Of a DNA stretch of 17,009 nucleotides, positions 1 through 8,663 are shown piece by piece. Each line of letters opens with the position of its first letter. Within the stretch, counting starts at the first letter, position 1. The DNA comes from an uncultured Odoribacter sp. (GTDB lineage Bacteria; Bacteroidota; Bacteroidia; Bacteroidales; Marinifilaceae), in the NCBI GenBank assembly GCA_905193145.1, contig CAJJNP010000057.1, positions 1 through 17,009 on the forward strand. Reading direction: 5' to 3'. The position numbers and the translations under genes are program-made. The notes beneath the pieces were generated by a model, which saw only the letters and a program-made list of their open reading frames with translations, ran no database searches and was not told where the DNA came from.

Positions 1-950
1 ACTTGTAGTAGTTCACCACCTAATTCTGTCACTAGTTTGAAGTGATTAAGCAGATGGCGTTGTGTAGAGAGATTGATTCTGTCTGGATTTTCTGCAGGGG
101 TTTGTACATATAAGGCAAGAAATTCCGTGTCATAACGGGAGGCTAACCGGGCTGTGCGGCGTATTAGGTGGCGTGGAGTGTTTTCATTGCTGCTGATACA
201 CACTAAAAAGCGTTCCCGAAGTACTGTCTTATCGTTCGGTACTATTTCCATATTTACTTTTTTCTCAACGCGGAGGGCAACTTCTTTCAGTGCTAATTCC
301 CTTAGTTGAAGAATATTTTCTGTTTTAAAGAAATTATGGAGTGCGGTTTGTATTTTTTCTGTTTTGTAAATTTTACCGCTTTTTAGACGGTTGATGAGTT
401 CTTCGGCAGTTAGGTCTATATTGACCACTTCATCGGCTTCTTCCAAAACTTTGTCCGGAATGCGTTCTTTGACTTCAATACCGGCAATACCTTTGATTTC
501 TTCGTTTAGACTTTCGATATGCTGGATGTTGACTGCTGATACGACGTTGATGCCAGCATTAAGTAGTTCCATGACATCTTGCCAGCGCTTGGAATTGCGA
601 CTGCCATCTACGTTGGTGTGAGCTAATTCGTCTACAATAACTAATTCTGGGCGAATTTGCAAGATGGTATCTAAATCCATTTCTTCTAATTCTTTCCCTT
701 TATAGAAAATTTTTTTTCGGGGGATAACAGGTAACCCATCTAATAAGGCTTCAGTACCTGTTCGACCGTGGGTTTCTACATATCCTATTTGCACGTCAAT
801 CCCGTTTTCCAGCATCTCATGTGCTTCTTGGAGCATTCGATAAGTTTTACCTACACCGGCAATCATGCCGATGTAGATTTTGAAAACGCCTCTTTGAGAA
901 CGTTTGATGAGTTCTAGGAAATGTTGTGCGCTTGCTTCTCGCTTATTCAT
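1..950 (-). CDS. kdpD: KdpD, K+/turgor sensor protein, N-terminal part (cut by window edge)
   Basis: The frame is open from the ATG at 950 to the left edge: 316 codons, no stop. The translation begins MNKREASAQHFLELIKRSQR and is a KdpD N-terminal sensor domain. It has a P-loop GMIAGVGKT (residues 28-36), the conserved VETHGR segment near 58-63, and a Walker B-like stretch ending DELAHTN (107-113). The part after about residue 235 looks like the start of the universal-stress-protein domain that follows in KdpD. In the family this cytoplasmic region senses K+/ATP status and controls kdp expression. The gene starts 20 bases after the kdpC stop and is clearly the distal gene of the kdp operon. 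In many Bacteroidota KdpD is short and lacks the membrane and kinase parts; the window ends too early to tell. Identity is sure, full architecture unknown. Confidence 0.95.
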   Translation of the reverse strand, partial: MNKREASAQHFLELIKRSQRGVFKIYIGMIAGVGKTYRMLQEAHEMLENGIDVQIGYVETHGRTGTEALLDGLPVIPRKKIFYKGKELEEMDLDTILQIRPELVIVDELAHTNVDGSRNSKRWQDVMELLNAGINVVSAVNIQHIESLNEEIKGIAGIEVKERIPDKVLEEADEVVNIDLTAEELINRLKSGKIYKTEKIQTALHNFFKTENILQLRELALKEVALRVEKKVNMEIVPNDKTVLRERFLVCISSNENTPRHLIRRTARLASRYDTEFLALYVQTPAENPDRINLSTQRHLLNHFKLVTELGGELLQ

Positions 951-970: not shown

Positions 971-1549
971 TTATTTTTCCTTGGCTTCTTCTAAAGCAAC
1001 ATTTAGTTTTAATACATTGATTTTTGCGGGTCCGAAAAGTCCACATAGGGGCTTTTCGATGTTTTTTTCTACGATAGCTTTTACTTCATCTTCTTGCATT
1101 CTGCGAGCTTGGGCTACCCGTTTGATTTGTACGTAAGCACAGGCTGGAGTAATATGGGGATCTAAACCGGAAGCACTAGCAGTTACCATTTCAGCAGGTA
1201 CTTCATTTCTTTTTAAATAAGGGTGATGTACTAAAAAAGTATCTATGCGAGCATTGACTTCGGCCAGATATTCTTCATTGGCAGGGCCTTTGTTGCTACC
1301 AGCAGAACTGGATGCATCATATCCGTCGCCGGCACAAGAGGGACGTCCCCAAAAGTAAATATCTTTGGTAAACTCCTGACCTATTTGATTGGCACCAACT
1401 ATTTTACCATGGAGGGTGATAGTTTCTGCATTACCATTTTTGCCTGGTGCTGCAAATTGAGCAAAAATCCAAAGAACAAGTATATAGCATACGGTCAATA
1501 CAACACAGAATGTAAGTGTAAGACGGATGGATTTTATTAAATTTTTCAT
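971..1549 (-). CDS. kdpC: KdpC, K+-transporting ATPase subunit C
   Basis: 192 residues, the usual KdpC length. KdpC is the single-span chaperone-like subunit of the KdpFABC pump and assists ATP binding by KdpB. One N-terminal membrane helix covers about residues 8-31; the rest would face the periplasm. Family motifs are FWGRPSCAGDGYDASSSAGS (66-85), SNKGPANEEY (85-94), SGLDPHITPACAYVQIKRVA (127-146) and INVLKLNVALEE near the C-terminus. The same frame is open to an ATG at 1603, but that start would overlap the end of kdpB by 29 bases and add a non-family N-terminus. The ATG at 1549, which places the membrane helix directly after MKNLIKS, is therefore preferred. It lies 25 bases after the kdpB stop and 20 bases before kdpD. 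Confidence 0.96.
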   Translation of the reverse strand: MKNLIKSIRLTLTFCVVLTVCYILVLWIFAQFAAPGKNGNAETITLHGKIVGANQIGQEFTKDIYFWGRPSCAGDGYDASSSAGSNKGPANEEYLAEVNARIDTFLVHHPYLKRNEVPAEMVTASASGLDPHITPACAYVQIKRVAQARRMQEDEVKAIVEKNIEKPLCGLFGPAKINVLKLNVALEEAKEK

Positions 1550-1574
1550 GATTATATTTGATTTTGAATGAGTA

Positions 1575-3608
1575 TTAAAAGAATAGTCCAATGAATAAAT
1601 CAATTAGTTTGATTCCGATGAACGGAGCAATTAGACCGCCAACACCATAGATTAATAAGTTGCGGCGCAGCAAAGCACTGGCTCCTATGGGCTTATAGGC
1701 TACACCTTTTAGTGCCAATGGAATTAGAATCGGAATGATGAGGGCGTTGAATATGATGGCTGAAAGAATTGCACTTTCCGGACTATGCAACCCCATGATG
1801 TTCAATGCGCTAAGTTGAGGAACGGAAACCATAAACAACGCCGGTATGATGGCGAAATATTTAGCAACGTCGTTGGCTATGGAGAAGGTGGTCAGTGTGC
1901 CACGTGTCATGAGTAATTGTTTACCTATTTCTACGATTTCAATCAGTTTGGTCGGGTCGTTATCCAAGTCAACCATATTACCTGCTTCTTTGGCTGCTTG
2001 TGTACCGCTGTTCATGGCAACGCCTACGTTAGCTTGTGCTAGAGCTGGAGCATCGTTGGTGCCATCACCCATCATGGCAACTAATTTACCGGCTGCTTGT
2101 TCTTTTTTGATGTAGTTCATCTTATCTTCCGGTTTGGCTTCTGCAATGAAATCATCTACTCCGGCTTTTTCTGTGATATATTTGGCTGTTAAAGGGTTGT
2201 CGCCTGTTACCATAACCGTTTTTACTCCCATTTTACGGAGGCGCTTGAATCGTTCTTCAATGCCGGGTTTGATGATATCTTGCAGTTCGATGATACCGGC
2301 AATTTTTTTATTTATACACACAACGAGCGGGGTTCCTCCTTTGCTACTAATGCGTTGGATCGTTTCTTCTGTTTCTTTTGGAAATTCATTGCCTGCTTCG
2401 GTGACTATGCTTCGAATAGCATCAAATGCTCCTTTGCGTATTTGAGTGCCGTCTTGCAAATCAATACCAGAACATTTGGTTTCTGCTGTGAATTTGATCA
2501 TGCGTGAACCGGTTGTATTTAATGAACGTATCCGTATGCCTTGTTCATGTCCCAATTCGATGATAGATTTTCCTTCGGGGGTGGCGTCTGATACAGAAGA
2601 GAGAAGACAGGCTTCAATAAAGGTGTGTTGGTCTAATCCTTTAACCGGATAAAAGGCAGTGGCTTTTCGATTACCAATGGTGATAGTGCCGGTTTTGTCC
2701 AATAGCAATGTATCGATGTCTCCAGCCGTTTCAACGGCTTTACCGGATTTGGTAATAACATTGGCACGTAGAGCCCGATCCATACCTGCGATACCAATAG
2801 CTGAAAGTAATCCACCGATGGTGGTCGGTATTAAGCATACGAACAAGGAGATGAAAGCTGCAATGGTAATGATAGTACCGGAATAGTCGGCCATAGGTTT
2901 TAAGGTGATGCATACAACAAGAAAAACCAATGTGAATACGGCAAGTAAAATGGTCAGTGCTATTTCGTTTGGGGTTTTTTGACGGCTTGCCCCTTCTACT
3001 AAGGAAATCATTTTGTCCAAAAAACTTTCGCCTGGCTGGCTTGTTACTACGACTTTAATATGGTCGGACAACACTTTTGTACCACCTGTTACGGAACTTT
3101 TGTCACCTCCGGCTTCACGAATGACGGGTGCTGATTCTCCGGTGATGGCACTTTCGTCGATTGAGGCTAATCCTTCGATGATTTCACCGTCTGCAGGAAT
3201 GATATCTCCAGCTTCACAGATGAATATATCTCCTTTTTTCAATTGTGAACTGTTGACGGTTTGTATGGTATCGTGGATGATGATTTTGGCTGGTGTTTCT
3301 TCACGAGTTTTGCGTAAACTGTCGGCTTGAGCTTTCCCTCTGGCTTCGGCAATAGCTTCGGCAAAATTGGCAAAAAGTAAGGTTACCAATAGAATGAAGA
3401 AAACTAGTAGATTGTAAGTAAAAGAACCCTGGGATGTATTGGTGGCAGAGTAAATAGTGACCAATAACATAATCAATGTAGAAACCTCTACTGTAAACAT
3501 AATGGGATTTTTAACCATTACTTTAGGATTCAATTTAATGAAAGACTGTTTCAAGCTGTCGGCAATTAATTCTTTTTGAAACAGGCTGTTATTTTGATTT
3601 GTTTTCAT
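1575..3608 (-). CDS. kdpB: KdpB, K+-transporting P-type ATPase catalytic subunit
   Basis: 677 residues, normal for KdpB. It hydrolyses ATP to drive K+ uptake through KdpA in the inner membrane. Visible in order: N-terminal helices from about 35, with the actuator-domain loop TGES (156-159; the family's regulatory serine is S159); the phosphorylation motif DKTGTIT with Asp304; the nucleotide-binding KGAF (392-395); [11 protein letters not shown] (468-478); the hinge [10 protein letters not shown] (514-523); and C-terminal helices. Asp580 and Lys583 in NDVAKYF match the charged pair of KdpB transmembrane helix 5 that couples ATP hydrolysis to transport. All key residues are present, so the enzyme should be active. 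It starts 38 bases after the kdpA stop; the start [20 protein letters not shown] is family-like. Confidence 0.98.
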
Positions 3609-3646: not shown

Positions 3647-5353
3647 TTATAGACTAAAGTGTTCGGCAATAGTGCTGAGTGCTTGTGCAGGGAAGAAGGA
3701 TAAAGCGGCAACAATGAAGATGACTGCAAAGGTCATAATGGCAAAGGTGACAGTGTCTGTCTTTAGTGTGCCGGCACTTTCCGGGATGTATTTTTTCTGA
3801 GCTAACAGACCAGCAATGGCAACTTGTCCGATGATAGGTATGAATCTGCTTAATATCAATACAATTCCACAAGAAACATTCCAAAACCATGTATTATCGC
3901 CTAATCCTTCAAAGCCAGAACCATTGTTAGCAGCACAAGAGGTGAATTCGTAAAGGATTTCACTTAAGCCATGAAATCCAGGATTGTTTAGCCAGCCTCC
4001 TTCTTGTTTGACAAATTCTGGTGCATGTATATACAGATAAGCGGCTAAAGCGGTGCCAACCAAAATAACAAATGGGTGTAGCAGTGCAACGATGGAGGCA
4101 ATTTTCATTTCTCGAGCTTCAACTTTGTGACACATGAATTCGGGGGTGCGTCCCACCATTAATCCACTGATAAATACAGCTATGATGATAAAAGTGAAAT
4201 AGTTCATCCAGCCTACTCCGACACCGCCAAACCAAGTGTTAATTTGCATGTTTAGCATTTCTATCATGCCGGATAGTGGCATGGTTGAGTCGTGCATTCC
4301 GTTGACTGAACCATTAGAGGTGACGGTGGTGACGATGCTCCATAAGCCGGTGGCTCCTGCTCCCAAGCGGATTTCTTTTCCTTCCATAGCACCATTGTCT
4401 TGTGTTATTCCCATGGCATCAATTTTAGGATTACCACCCATTTCCTGAGAAACATTGATTCCCACTCCAATTAAAAAAGCAACTAGCATGACACCGAAGA
4501 TGCTATAACCTAATTTTTTGCGATTTACATAAAAACCGAAAGCAAAGACCATTGCCATGGGAATTAGTATGATGGAGCAACATTCTATGATATTTGTCAG
4601 ATAAGTTGGGTTTTCCAAGGGATGTGAAGCATTGACACCAAAATAACCACCGCCATTTGTTCCTAATTGTTTGATGGGTACGATTGCTGCTGCAGGACCT
4701 TGAGAAATTGTTTGTGTGTTGCCTTCCAATGTAGTAATTTCCATCTTACCATCAAATCCCATGGGGGTACCCTGAAGAATCAAGATGAAACCGACAATTA
4801 AAGAAAGAGGTAATAAAATACGGGTACAGCTTAGAACGAGAAAATTCCAAAAATTGCCAATTGTTTGGGTTGTTTTTTCTCCTAATGCTTTCATGATTCC
4901 AGCCATGGCTGCCATGCCTGTTGCAGCTGTGATAAATTGGAAGAGCATGATGACAAAGAGTTGGGTGAAGTAGGTTAATCCGCTTTCTCCGCTATAATGC
5001 TGCAAGTTGCAGTTTACCATGAAGCTGATGCAAGTGTTGAATGCTTGATGGGCACTTTGATTTAAGTTGTTGTCTGGATTAAGAGGAAGATAATTCTGGC
5101 AAGTTAACAGAATCATGCCCCATATAAACCATACAAAGTTAACCATTAATAGGGCTTTTAAGAATTGTTTCCAATTCATTTCTTCGTCAGGTTGAATTCC
5201 TGATAATCGGAATATGAATCGTTCCAAGGGTTTCATAAAGTCACTCCATACTTTTTGGCCTTTATAAACCTTGGCTATGTATTTGCCAAGTGGGTAGCTA
5301 AGTGCTACTACTAAAATGATTTGTGCTATTACACCTATAATTTCAGTATTCAT
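3647..5353 (-). CDS. kdpA: KdpA, K+-transporting ATPase channel subunit
   Basis: 568 residues, very close to family length (E. coli about 557). This polytopic membrane protein binds and translocates K+. It shows about ten hydrophobic segments and the four pore-loop regions of the K+ transporter superfamily: loop 1 at MVNCNLQHYSGE (112-123), loop 2 at GTNGGGYFGVNASHPLENP (231-249), loop 3 at TTVTSNGSVNGMHD (342-355) and loop 4 at CAANNGSGFEGL (473-484). Loop 1 differs from the TNTNWQ form I know from E. coli, while the asparagines and the glutamine are kept. The ATG at 5353 lies 14 bases after the kdpF stop, consistent with one transcript with kdpF and kdpB. Confidence 0.98.
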   Translation of the reverse strand: MNTEIIGVIAQIILVVALSYPLGKYIAKVYKGQKVWSDFMKPLERFIFRLSGIQPDEEMNWKQFLKALLMVNFVWFIWGMILLTCQNYLPLNPDNNLNQSAHQAFNTCISFMVNCNLQHYSGESGLTYFTQLFVIMLFQFITAATGMAAMAGIMKALGEKTTQTIGNFWNFLVLSCTRILLPLSLIVGFILILQGTPMGFDGKMEITTLEGNTQTISQGPAAAIVPIKQLGTNGGGYFGVNASHPLENPTYLTNIIECCSIILIPMAMVFAFGFYVNRKKLGYSIFGVMLVAFLIGVGINVSQEMGGNPKIDAMGITQDNGAMEGKEIRLGAGATGLWSIVTTVTSNGSVNGMHDSTMPLSGMIEMLNMQINTWFGGVGVGWMNYFTFIIIAVFISGLMVGRTPEFMCHKVEAREMKIASIVALLHPFVILVGTALAAYLYIHAPEFVKQEGGWLNNPGFHGLSEILYEFTSCAANNGSGFEGLGDNTWFWNVSCGIVLILSRFIPIIGQVAIAGLLAQKKYIPESAGTLKTDTVTFAIMTFAVIFIVAALSFFPAQALSTIAEHFSL

Positions 5354-5459: not shown

Positions 5460-5558
5460 TTAAATGTTTTCAAACCAATCAATGCATTTCATGAATATCC
5501 AAAAACAGGCAACTCCTAAGAGTATGCAAATTACAAATCCAATACTTAACAATTCCAT
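5460..5558 (-). CDS. 32-residue single-span membrane peptide heading the kdp operon
   Basis: A 32-codon ATG-to-TAA frame sits between the predicted kdp promoter and kdpF. The peptide has a short N-terminus (MELLS), a hydrophobic helix from about residues 5 to 25, and a charged amphipathic tail KCIDWFENI. It is not KdpF, which follows 11 bases later with its own motif. From memory, comparable unnamed tiny membrane proteins occur just upstream of kdpF in other bacteria, sometimes carrying misleading 'potassium transporter ATPase' names; I could not check this. Its place as first gene after the promoter suggests an extra Kdp accessory peptide. Alternatively it is a translated leader that couples to kdpF. 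Coding status is likely, function unknown. Confidence 0.62.
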   Translation of the reverse strand: MELLSIGFVICILLGVACFWIFMKCIDWFENI

Positions 5559-5610
5559 TTTTTCTTGTTTTATTTGTGATACTTATTTATACTAAACTGT
5601 TTATTATATT

Positions 5611-5626
5611 GGCAATGGGTATGCCA
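5611..5626 (-). promoter_or_regulatory. Sigma-54 (-24/-12) promoter of the kdp operon
   Basis: The minus strand reads TGGCATACCCATTGCC. Against the RpoN consensus TGGCACGNNNNTTGCW it keeps TGGCA and TTGC with exact spacing: the -24 GG lies at 5625-5624 and the -12 GC at 5613-5612. Transcription would start near 5600, 42 bases before the first ATG of the operon. No TAnnTTTG housekeeping element occurs on this strand between the upstream terminator and that ATG. The gene just upstream encodes a GAFTGA-bearing sigma-54 activator. Caveat: with the next base the site is also a dyad, TGGCA-N7-TGCCA, so an operator is an alternative reading. Confidence 0.72.
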
Positions 5627-5696
5627 TAATGTGTGGAATGAATGAAATGCTTTGAATGATAGTCGAATAGGATTTTTATTAATAGGGCAAAAAAAG

Positions 5697-5725
5697 AAGG
5701 ACCTTCTCATTTTGAGAAGGTCCTT
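5697..5725 (-). terminator. Rho-independent terminator of the response-regulator gene
   Basis: A perfect 12-bp stem (AAGGACCTTCTC, 5697-5708, with GAGAAGGTCCTT, 5714-5725) closes a 5-base loop. On the minus strand it is followed by a run of seven T (5689-5696 region). It lies 22 bases beyond the regulator stop codon and upstream of the kdp promoter, so the regulator and kdp are separate transcription units. Confidence 0.9.
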
Positions 5726-5747
5726 TTATCATTTTGAGATAATAGAT

Positions 5748-7076
5748 TTAAATATGATAGGTTTCTATTTTTCGATAGAGGGTAGCTAAACCTATTTTTA
5801 AGAGTCGTGCTGCTTCTGTTTTGTTGCCATGGGTATATTGTAAAACTTTCATGATGTGCTTACGTTCGATGACAGATAATTCAAATTCGTTACTTTCATT
5901 TGTGTTTTGAAAGTGGTTGTGTTGCAATTCGACTGGTAAATCTTGCAGAGTTACTATATTGTCACATACAATGGCACTGCGCTCCATGATATTTCTGAGT
6001 TCTCGAATATTACCTTTCCATTCGGCTTGTTGCAAGGCTGTGAGTACTTCGGGGGTTATTCCGGAGATGTTTTTATTTAATTTTTTGGCAAATTGCTGGA
6101 GAAATGTTTGAGCCAATATTTCGATGTCTTCTTTACGTTCCCGTAATGGAGGAAGTTGGATTTGAAAAACTGACAACCGGAAATAGAGGTCTTCTCTAAA
6201 ATTGCCTTTTTCAATCTCACTTTTCAAGTCTCGGTTGGTGGCTGCGATGATGCGGACATTTATTTTGGTGCATTTTGTATCTCCTACTTTGATGAATTCA
6301 CTTGATTCCAGAACACGTAATAATTTAGCTTGTAGGCTAAATTCCATTTCTCCAATTTCGTCCAGAAAAATAGTTCCGCCATGAGCTTCTTCGAATAGTC
6401 CTTTTTTATCTTTTAAAGCACCTGTAAAGGCTCCGGCTTTGTGTCCGAATAATTCGCTTTCCAATAATTCTTTACTGAAAGCAGAACAGTTAAGTGCAAT
6501 GAACGGTTTGTCTTTTCGGGGACTGGCCTGATGGATGGATTGGGCAAATACTTCTTTGCCGGTACCGGTTTCGCCTGTTAGTAAAACGCAGGCATCTGTC
6601 GCTGCCACTTTTTGAGCCATGTGTACTACTTCTTGTAAGCAAGCAGATTTTCCTGTAATAGCAGAAAAGATAAGGGTATTGGGTTGTGGTGTTATCTGTT
6701 CTGAATGATGTGGTTTCTGTTCAGTCATGGCTCTACTGACTAAGGGGATGATTTTTCGGTTGTCATCACCTTTAACAATATAGTCAAAAGCACCATTTTT
6801 AATGGCTTGTACACCATCAGGAATATTTCCGTGTGCTGTAAGTAAGATGATATTAGCTTGTGGGGCAATTTTTTTTAGTTCCGGAACCATGATGACTCCA
6901 TTTCCATCAGGTAGAAAAACATCGCATAAAATGACTTGCACTTCGTGCTTTTTGAGCATCTCTAATCCGCTGGCTCTGTCTTTAGCTTGAAAAACTTCAT
7001 ATCCTTCAAGTTCAAGTATTCTGCTTAACAGCATTCTAATGGTCTGTTCGTCATCAATAATCAGTATTGTATCCAT
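5748..7076 (-). CDS. NtrC-family sigma-54-dependent response regulator, probable kdp activator
   Basis: 442 residues in the standard three-domain order. The receiver domain (about 1-120) has the acidic pair Asp8/Asp9, phospho-acceptor Asp52, Thr80 and Lys102. The AAA+ domain (about 138-370) has Walker A GETGTGKE (168-175), the sigma-54 contact loop GAFTGA (215-220), Walker B GGTIFLDE (233-240), arginine-finger candidates around 294-300 and sensor II GNIREL (356-361). A Fis-type helix-turn-helix, GNKTEAARLLKIGLATLYRK (417-436), ends the protein. When phosphorylated, such proteins oligomerise, bind upstream DNA and remodel RNA polymerase-RpoN. No histidine kinase lies next to it in the window. 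It ends just upstream of a sigma-54 promoter that reads into kdp, so it is inferred to control Kdp in place of KdpE. The ATG at 7076 gives a complete receiver domain. Family certain, target inferred. Confidence 0.95.
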   Translation of the reverse strand: MDTILIIDDEQTIRMLLSRILELEGYEVFQAKDRASGLEMLKKHEVQVILCDVFLPDGNGVIMVPELKKIAPQANIILLTAHGNIPDGVQAIKNGAFDYIVKGDDNRKIIPLVSRAMTEQKPHHSEQITPQPNTLIFSAITGKSACLQEVVHMAQKVAATDACVLLTGETGTGKEVFAQSIHQASPRKDKPFIALNCSAFSKELLESELFGHKAGAFTGALKDKKGLFEEAHGGTIFLDEIGEMEFSLQAKLLRVLESSEFIKVGDTKCTKINVRIIAATNRDLKSEIEKGNFREDLYFRLSVFQIQLPPLRERKEDIEILAQTFLQQFAKKLNKNISGITPEVLTALQQAEWKGNIRELRNIMERSAIVCDNIVTLQDLPVELQHNHFQNTNESNEFELSVIERKHIMKVLQYTHGNKTEAARLLKIGLATLYRKIETYHI

Positions 7077-7102: not shown

Positions 7103-7110
7103 CAAATTTA
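7103..7110 (-). promoter_or_regulatory. Bacteroidota -7 box for the response-regulator gene
   Basis: The minus strand reads TAAATTTG, an exact TAnnTTTG match, with a T-rich segment about 19 bases upstream in place of a clear -33 TTTG. Transcription would start about 20 bases before the ATG at 7076. The regulator thus appears to use the housekeeping sigma factor, unlike its neighbour kdp. Confidence 0.5.
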
Positions 7111-7202
7111 TTGATAAATTTTGGTGATAAAAACATGTTGGAATATGAATATTAAGGTATGGTTATTGATATATGAATTTTATTATTTACAATATCGCCG
7201 TT

Positions 7203-8663
7203 ATGATAGATGTCCAGGTGCGTATTCACGACCGCTTTGTTGTGGAATTTAAGATTGGTTATGTGGTAAGGAAGGATAAACCACGTAGTGATTTTATGAT
7301 TAATACGTGGATGTTTGTGCCGAATACGTTGGATATAAATTACGACACTTACACAAAGAATCAGTTTTATCGTGATGTGAAATCGAATATTCGTTTGATT
7401 ACTCCTATATATTCTTTGAAGGAGGTTGCGAATGAAGAGGCATTGCCGTTTCAGTTTTTGGAGGTAGCTGTTAATGAATTGAACGTTGAGGCTACGGCGG
7501 AGAATTTTGCGGAGGCGGAATATCAAGTGAAGATGTTTTGTTCCATCACTAAAAGTGCTTTGCGAAGAGAGGTTGACCGCGTATGGCGTTATTCTGATAC
7601 TGCAAGTCGCTTGAAAGTGATTGAAGCGTATATTTTGCGGGTGGAAGGTATATTGAAAAAATATCGCAGTTTGTGTGAGTTGCTACCGGTTGACGGTGCA
7701 GGGAAGGATATACGGGTTTTTCATAGCTTTGGTGATGAATTTTTGTCTAATCAGGTAGATTTCTATACATTTAAGTTGTTGGAGCGGCTTCGGAAAAAAG
7801 ATAAAGAGTGTTTTGGATTGGTGGAAGAGCGTTTGTTGAAACTTGTCCGTGATGAGGTGGTTTATCGTCGTTCCCGAGGGTTTCTGGTTGTGGAAAGGCA
7901 TAGCCCCAATCGTAATCGGGCTGCTTTGTTCCGTCGAAGAATGCTGCGTCTGTATACAGAAAGTCATTTGTTTTTAAAAGCCGACCGTAAGAAGGATGGG
8001 GCGATGGTGGAACAACTTTATTTCAGTATTGCTGCGGGTATTTCAATGATTTTTGCAACTTTGATATCGTTTTCTTTTCAGCAGAAATATGGAAATTTCA
8101 CAACACCGTTATTTATTGCTTTGGTGGTGAGTTATATGTTGAAAGATAGAATCAAAGAGCTGACCCGATATTATTTTGTACATCGTCTTGCTAAAAAGTA
8201 TTTTGACAATAAGACAACAATCAGTATAAAGGACAAACCGATAGGGTGGATAAAAGAAGGTGTTGATTTCATTACAGAAGACCGAGTACCTGAGGAGGTG
8301 ATGGCTATGCGTGACCGTTCCGATATTTTAGAGGCCAATAATCGTCAGATGGCAGAAAAAATCATTCTTTATCGTACGCTTGTCCGGATAGACGGGCAAG
8401 TGTTGGATGAGAATATTCAGTATGATGTTTCGGGCGTTCACAATATACTGCGTTTTAATGTATCGTCTTTTATACTAAAAATGGAAAATCCGGAGGTGCC
8501 GTTGGCGGTTCCTAAAGAGGAAGGAGGCTATGAAATCATTAACGGTGAGCGTATTTATTATATTAATTATCTGCTGCAATTGAGAAGCAGTGAAAACGTC
8601 GATTACAAGCGTTTTCGTCTGATCTTGTCGCGCAATGGTATTGAGGGTATAGAAAAAATGTAA
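7203..8663 (+). CDS. Conserved-looking membrane-associated protein of unknown function
   Basis: I do not recognise a named family. From this start the protein has 486 residues. A long charged N-terminal region (1-270) is rich in Arg, Lys and Glu and contains helical, possibly coiled-coil stretches (about 140-165 and 190-225). Two close hydrophobic segments follow (about 272-292 and 299-314) separated by QQKYGNFTTP, which suggests a helical hairpin in the membrane. After them come a basic stretch KDRIKELTRYYFVHRLAKKY and a soluble C-terminal part. No signal peptide, P-loop, metal motif or protease motif is visible. The frame is open to an ATG at 7173, but those ten extra residues come from AT-rich DNA resembling the intergenic region, so 7203 (MIDVQVRIHDRF) is preferred, without certainty. 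It is divergent from the response regulator (126 bases) and lies 92 bases upstream of speA with no terminator between. Confidence 0.82.
   Translation: MIDVQVRIHDRFVVEFKIGYVVRKDKPRSDFMINTWMFVPNTLDINYDTYTKNQFYRDVKSNIRLITPIYSLKEVANEEALPFQFLEVAVNELNVEATAENFAEAEYQVKMFCSITKSALRREVDRVWRYSDTASRLKVIEAYILRVEGILKKYRSLCELLPVDGAGKDIRVFHSFGDEFLSNQVDFYTFKLLERLRKKDKECFGLVEERLLKLVRDEVVYRRSRGFLVVERHSPNRNRAALFRRRMLRLYTESHLFLKADRKKDGAMVEQLYFSIAAGISMIFATLISFSFQQKYGNFTTPLFIALVVSYMLKDRIKELTRYYFVHRLAKKYFDNKTTISIKDKPIGWIKEGVDFITEDRVPEEVMAMRDRSDILEANNRQMAEKIILYRTLVRIDGQVLDENIQYDVSGVHNILRFNVSSFILKMENPEVPLAVPKEEGGYEIINGERIYYINYLLQLRSSENVDYKRFRLILSRNGIEGIEKM

Follow-up and report, generated by a model that had tools for sequence, protein, structure and literature searches.

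In Escherichia coli, the kdpFABC genes are under two-component control by KdpD and the OmpR-family regulator KdpE. The window analysed here, a stretch of 17,009 nucleotides from an uncultured Odoribacter sp., holds a kdp operon next to a gene for a regulator of the NtrC type, which raises the question of how this potassium pump is controlled. An earlier note, made from the sequence alone, had proposed that the operon depends on sigma-54 and on this regulator, and that control had been rewired in the lineage. According to the data presented below, control of kdp by sigma-54 and the adjacent NtrC-type regulator is very probable, a reading supported by the promoter geometry, the occurrence of rpoN in relatives, and the linkage of the regulator to potassium importers.

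Table 1. Features of the window around the kdp operon.
Feature	Position	Strand	Basis or remark
TAnnTTTG element	7103..7110	-	Upstream of the regulator gene; motif scan
NtrC-type response regulator	5748..7076	-	Pfam domains, motifs, K+-linked group in tree
Distal enhancer dyad (predicted), TCAAAATGA	5729..5737	-	111 bp ahead of the -24 TGG
Proximal enhancer dyad (predicted), TCAAAATGA	5707..5715	-	89 bp ahead of the -24 TGG
Intrinsic terminator-like hairpin of the regulator gene	5697..5725	-	T-run next; just past the stop
-24/-12 sigma-54 promoter (predicted), TGGCATACCCATTGCC	5611..5626	-	GG-N10-GC exact
Small ORF, 32-aa hydrophobic peptide (...CIDWFENI)	5460..5558	-	First ORF past the promoter
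kdpF, 26 aa	5368..5448	-	TIGR02115, 28.7 bits against a cut-off of 26.85
kdpA	3647..5353	-	PF03814; TIGR00680
kdpB	1575..3608	-	P-type ATPase domains PF00122 and PF00702; operon position
kdpC	971..1603	-	PF02669; coordinates of the longest ORF
kdpD, N-terminal part (PF02702 sensor)	3..950	-	Runs past the window edge

On the minus strand, the regulator gene is followed by an intergenic region, the 32-aa ORF, kdpF, kdpA, kdpB, kdpC, and the start of kdpD (Table 1), which was set at 950 from relatives within an open ORF that extends to 1046. The small ORF is a recurrent feature: in 25 of the 31 window-type kdp loci, a hydrophobic peptide of 27–35 aa (22 as read in L073) with a KCVDWFEKI-like end is encoded ahead of kdpF, whereas none of the 18 inspected kdp loci of the other type has it. 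A search of NCBIfam yielded no match for the 32-aa peptide, which is a candidate extra subunit of Kdp. Additional genes are found in related clusters. Many of them (L043 6836-7603 and relatives) encode a protein of 233–304 aa, labelled "barrel" here, between kdpC and kdpD that is absent from the window and, in the L043 copy, has no Pfam match; L052 encodes a BBP2 porin-like protein between kdpC and kdpD; and in many phylum-wide loci (L205-L227, around 3000-3500) a conserved 93-aa ORF lies between the regulator gene and kdpA.

The regulator ORF (7076-5748) encodes 442 aa and holds, according to Pfam, a receiver domain, a Sigma54_activat domain (E 1e-72), an AAA lid, and an HTH_8/Fis domain. The GAFTGA motif was located by motif scan at residues 215-220, a Walker A stretch (GETGTGKE) at residue 168, and a VILCD stretch with the candidate phospho-Asp at residues 48-52. 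When the protein was compared by sequence with solved structures, the best matches were NtrC-family regulators. Both Pfam and the motif scan therefore confirm the claim of the earlier note that the regulator adjoining kdp carries GAFTGA and a Fis-type helix-turn-helix. This protein has the sequence features of a sigma-54-dependent NtrC-type response regulator, and ATP-driven activation of the sigma-54 holoenzyme is predicted. Protein relatives of the window include Phocaeicola (68% identity), and the first ortholog loci studied (L001-L003), from Bacteroidales or Bacteroidota, showed 61–63% identity. Upstream of the regulator gene lies a TAnnTTTG element, which we take to be a Bacteroidota housekeeping element of the -7 type, and a protein of 496 aa without a Pfam match is encoded divergently from the regulator at 7173-8663 (+).

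The -24/-12 match with exact spacing reported previously upstream of kdp was recovered at the same place (Table 1), and would put the kdp transcription start near 5600. On its own, this match is weak and non-significant: the pattern TGGCAY-N5-TTGC was found once in the window against 0.13 expected, and it was present in 24 of 200 shuffles. For this reason, kdpA was searched across related genomes, giving a match in 35 of 295 genomes of the order of L001 and in 19 of 123 genomes of the family of G108. Besides a few fragments, the kdpA sequences fell into a window-like group with 55–83% identity (L013-L024) and a second group with 42–46% (L025-L042 and others). In 9 of the 12 window-like kdpA loci (L013-L015, L017-L022) the regulator is encoded directly upstream, within a 1.5 kb flank.

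The reading of the earlier note did not include two tandem dyads, TCAAAATGA, at 5707-5715 and 5729-5737. Such a pair with a spacing of 22 bp was found once in the window and never in 200 shuffles. Paired activator sites roughly two turns from each other, some 110–135 bp before the start, are a usual layout of sigma-54 promoters. Conservation of this arrangement was assessed in 31 kdp upstream regions (the window, L013-L024, L063-L078, L080, and L081). A YCAWWWTGR dyad is located 86–92 bp before TGGYAY in 24 of the 31 regions and 108–114 bp before it in 11, so that either spacing is present in 27/31, while dinucleotide shuffles gave a mean of 0.06 loci and a maximum of 1 in 300 rounds. The composite is missing in four regions: L019 has the dyads but TGGCCT as the promoter element, L073 holds degenerate dyads, L074 lacks both elements, and L081 is cut by the end of its contig. 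The resulting alignment (A1) comprises 27 kdp rows together with L001, L002, and L116, omitting L024, L068 (a near-copy of L067), L074, and L081. The distance from dyads to promoter appears to be fixed, as for an enhancer and its sigma-54 promoter. A chance match to -24/-12, possible from the window alone, is ruled out by the conserved geometry of the relatives.

With regard to the promoter element itself, 29 kdp rows and two kimA rows were compared. Conservation of both GG and GC, which the earlier note had suggested checking, was found only in part: GG occurs in all 29 kdp rows, largely by construction, the rows being anchored on TGG, and the -12 dinucleotide is GC in 16 of them, GT in 7, GA in 4, and other in 2. 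The RpoN DNA-binding domain was detected in all 31 related genomes tested (3/3 and 28/28), with the RpoN box ARRTVAKYRE intact in the seven rpoN loci read (7/7); judging by these relatives, the bacterium of the window presumably encodes rpoN, as well as the kinase described below.

The variable -12 half, with GC in little more than half of the kdp rows, could also fit an operator for another protein, in which case kdp would use a housekeeping sigma promoter. In the window, TGGCA-N7-TGCCA indeed forms a perfect dyad (1 found against 0.03 expected), and the earlier note had offered it as an alternative reading of the same bases. This dyad failed the comparison, as its second half, TGCCA, appears in none of the 30 other rows, 11 of which show TTGGCA there. 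Moreover, the element keeps a constant distance to enhancer-type dyads, next to the gene of a GAFTGA regulator, and no TAnnTTTG promoter for kdp was found by motif scan in 5559-5747 on the minus strand. All this makes the operator reading very unlikely. The statement that the -24/-12 match is the only promoter-like element before kdp holds for TAnnTTTG, but a sigma-70 scan did reveal a weak 9-of-12 match at 5767-5739 (-), in a scan that performed near chance level (53 found against 46.9 expected).

The proximal dyad has a second context. The earlier note had observed that the regulator gene ends at its own terminator, and this was borne out by a strong hairpin followed by a T-run after the stop codon (Table 1), the 68-nt region folding with -22.6 kcal/mol (z -5.6). 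The proximal dyad lies in the apex of this hairpin, and the dyads might accordingly be mere parts of the terminator rather than enhancers. Among the 15 loci where the end of the regulator gene precedes the proximal dyad centre by 29–59 bp, the dyad mostly falls within a long hairpin, with a mean half-length of 15.1 and 6.2 GC pairs, and at least five T are found in the next 10 bases in 11 (the exceptions, short or lacking it, are L013, L017, L018, and L077). In the 14 loci without an adjacent regulator end, the means drop to 7.1 and 1.8 GC pairs, lowered in part because L024, L069, L071, and L073 have no clear proximal dyad; the Mann-Whitney P values of 8e-4 (half-length) and 2e-4 (GC pairs) are overstated because the loci are related and not independent. 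Yet 10 of these 14 loci retain a dyad 86–92 bp before TGGYAY, and the distal dyad of the window lies outside the hairpin, so a role in termination only is highly improbable. Most simply, a single palindrome may serve as both terminator and enhancer, of which mainly the core is retained where no gene is left to terminate. The locus would then represent a case of a putative enhancer nested in a terminator.

The window shows only the N-terminus of KdpD, and the position of a kinase gene falls beyond its edge. In all 11 window-type Bacteroidales clusters (L043-L053), a KdpD of 370–375 aa comes before a separate kinase of 479–578 aa, and the same split is found phylum-wide in 10 of 12 stretches, the other two being L240, which is cut before kdpD, and L241, without kdp; overall, the stand-alone, non-kinase KdpD of relatives has 370–381 aa. 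The KdpD of L043, the one scanned whole, holds only the KdpD domain in Pfam, and the three kinases scanned (L043, L045, and L046) hold HAMP, PAS, HisKA, and HATPase domains. This KdpD is similar to the NCBIfam model NF038185, a KdpD-like non-kinase potassium sensor, over residues 6-343 with 359 bits, but under the model cut-off of 550 bits. The kinase gene is a neighbour of the regulator gene apart from kdp as well (L118 and L122), follows it two genes later in L116, and adjoins it in G337 (L117), which has the KdpA nearest to that of the window among those seen (89%). Since the kinase adjoins the regulator even away from kdp, their pairing is supported.

Other Bacteroidales kdp clusters have a full KdpD and an OmpR-type regulator, and a canonical KdpD/KdpE pair encoded elsewhere in the genome could in principle control kdp in the window, leaving another function for its NtrC-type neighbour. 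In eight clusters of this second type, KdpD has 884–895 aa and the stretch encodes a response regulator of 226–229 aa, which in L055, the one checked with Pfam, is of the OmpR type. However, these clusters carry the different kdpA, and the composite position weight matrix (PWM) reached at most 6.1 bits in the eight kdp loci of this type that were scanned, on both strands. In the window-type stretches examined, no KdpE/OmpR-type match or full-length KdpD kinase was found, KdpD being short and the kinase separate as described, and the NtrC-type clade tracks K+ importers (see below). This alternative is consequently very unlikely. As to the rewiring of control proposed in the earlier note, given that full KdpD/KdpE clusters come with a different kdpA (42–46% identity to that of the window), a difference of the whole module is as likely as a changed promoter. 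The system would share with that of E. coli the two-component control of kdpFABC and the KdpD sensor domain, and would differ from it in its sigma-54 type promoter, as well as in having neither a full KdpD kinase nor an OmpR-type KdpE.

The regulator is linked to potassium uptake well beyond kdp. A K+ importer (Kdp, Trk/Ktr, Kup, or KimA) is encoded near 45 of 49 orthologs examined (46 when G518, with kdp about 3 kb away, is included) and near none of 19 paralogs. A search of Bacteroidales at E<=1e-108 retrieved 22 orthologs in 21 of 295 genomes, all of which were inspected, and 20 of them lie near an importer: 11 near kdp, one near kimA, and eight near trkA, trkH, or ktrA. When equal flanks of 1.5 kb were compared, a K+ gene was present for 16/22 orthologs versus 0/19 paralogs. 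In G108, kdp is about 6 kb from the regulator (L123), and no importer was seen beside the regulator in the stretch fetched for G173, in G143, where it is at a contig end, or in the 12 kb of G456. In a phylum-wide sample of 395 genomes, the best-scoring ortholog matches were examined and gave 27 new loci, 25 with an importer within 1.5 kb (24 kdpA and one kup) and 22 with a promoter PWM score of at least 20 bits, the other five scoring below 20. Moreover, in 10 of 12 genomes whose kdp lacks an adjacent regulator (or where this is unclear), an ortholog was found at E<1e-150; the ortholog search of genomes detected none in G351 and G165, the latter still having sites. In the tree, the K+ group forms one branch (100/100), a result partly built in because the K+ group labels were preset by identity, and the window protein is nearest to that of L116, a neighbour of trkH; L097, L109, L110, and further orthologs (L086-L093, L098) are omitted from this tree. 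Within the K+ group, as judged from gene neighbourhoods, the linked importer varies while the regulator persists.

The PWM for the composite was trained on kdp loci only, whose own scores are therefore in-sample. Before kimA it gave 42.8 (L192), 37.4 (L002), and 28.1 bits (L155), before trkH 42.3 bits (L116), and before a DUF7674-trkA pair 22.4 bits (L193). In L003 a site of 35.8 bits follows kup, at the place where L002 has kimA and where the L003 contig ends, and L229/L239, with the order regulator-kup-kdp, scored 24.7; no convincing composite was found before kup in L002 or L003. KimA of L002 was recognised from a match to 6s3k (E 2.9e-73), and TrkH of L116 and Kup of L003 by Pfam. Other trk/ktr loci gave 17.9 (L194), 14.9 (L195), 13.5 (L202), 11.5 (L201), 10.7 (L200), 4.0 (L197), and -1.1 bits (L199), where scores below about 17 are not clear because secondary sites in non-kdp loci score as high as 16.4; in L200, however, the composite is recovered with the strict pattern. 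That pattern also matches sites not preceding an importer (L123 at 2053, L199 at 8941, and the paralog locus L096), and other spacings occur in L154 (81 bp) and L161 (74 and 93 bp). Based on these sites, it is probable that the same clade controls other K+ importers through the same composite, forming a wider regulon.

A profile (R1) that includes three non-kdp rows was searched against the 295 genomes, 124 of which had a match at E<=0.01, and 18 further matches among those listed were inspected in their surroundings. The weak matches proved unproductive: besides importers and the regulator itself, the regions hold genes with no K+ link and a different, paralogous regulator (L156, L157, L163, L170, and L171). 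This paralog, of the NtrC type and 35–36% identical (L156, L157, L163, and L171), has similar dyads and a -24/-12 element before a gene for a protein of 318–328 aa, which in L156 has no Pfam match. In L154 (3139-3250), a dyad lies 81 bp before TGGCAT upstream of a fusion of GT20 and trehalose phosphatase, OtsA/OtsB-like. A role of the regulator in osmotic adaptation may be envisaged. Separately, a DUF7674 protein is encoded between the regulator gene and trkA or within a kdp cluster (L053 6726-7109, L193 7514-7849, L195 5603-5941, and L202 7140-7478), assigned to PF24722 by Pfam in the L158/L193 and L169/L202 copies and by similarity in the others; it is possibly a small partner of K+ uptake.

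From these parts, their conservation and spacing, the gene linkage, and the split KdpD of relatives, a mechanism can be postulated in which regulator binding, the kinase–regulator pairing, the signal, and the start site are the proposed elements. The kdp operon would be transcribed from the sigma-54 promoter at 5626-5611 (-), and the NtrC-type regulator would bind the two TCAWWWTGA dyads, whose centres lie about 111 and 133 bp before the start, and remodel the closed complex using ATP. The stand-alone KdpD would sense low K+ and act on a distinct HAMP-PAS histidine kinase in the membrane, by which the regulator would be phosphorylated. In Bacteroidota, the same regulator clade may control KimA, Trk/Ktr, and perhaps Kup via the same composite promoter. 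Potassium pumps in many members of this phylum would be under all-or-nothing control of the enhancer type.

A related system has been reported in Desulfovibrio vulgaris. According to PMC3333781 and PMC4641369, the kdp operon is a target of the GAFTGA response regulator DVU3334, which reportedly controls the operon that encodes it, and two additional regulators act on kdp as well; KdpD is divided between DVU3336 (sensor and UspA) and DVU3335 (kinase), potassium uptake appears among the sigma-54 operons, and DVU3334 orthologs are reported only in D. vulgaris Miyazaki and S. fumaroxidans. By this description, both systems have an NtrC-type regulator beside kdp and a KdpD divided into two ORFs (in relatives of the window). 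Unlike DVU3334, which is said to act on its own operon, the regulator in Bacteroidota is often encoded apart, upstream of kdp and ahead of a terminator of its own, and members of the regulator clade also occur beside Trk/Ktr, Kup, and KimA. Since DVU3334 and a split KdpD have already been described, the Bacteroidota case would be a broader variant of a known form of control. PMC3162934 connects kdp of E. coli with sigma-54 only indirectly, by way of PTS-Ntr. An open-access literature search, with most subscription journals outside its scope, found nothing on the transcriptional control of potassium supply in Bacteroidota, and the main text of a sigma-54 regulon survey that includes this phylum (PMC12316311) does not contain the words "kdp" or "potassium". 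Control of K+ uptake by sigma-54 and an NtrC-type regulator is thus ordinary in principle, but the form seen here is well defined, spread through the phylum, and apparently undescribed in Bacteroidota.

The balance tilts slightly towards a more general proposal, in which one orthologous NtrC-type regulator would be the potassium/osmotic master switch of much of Bacteroidota, driving Kdp, Trk/Ktr, Kup, KimA, and in places OtsA/OtsB trehalose synthesis by means of a single enhancer–sigma-54 code, often with the enhancer placed in its own terminator, and with a Kdp operon that includes an undescribed additional membrane micropeptide. Potassium supply underlies turgor and pH tolerance. The code of TCAWWWTGA dyads placed about 90 and 112 bp ahead of TGGCAY defines a directly testable regulon, the split arrangement points to a KdpD sensor able to function separately from a kinase, and one of the numerous enhancer-binding proteins in Bacteroidota is given a probable function.
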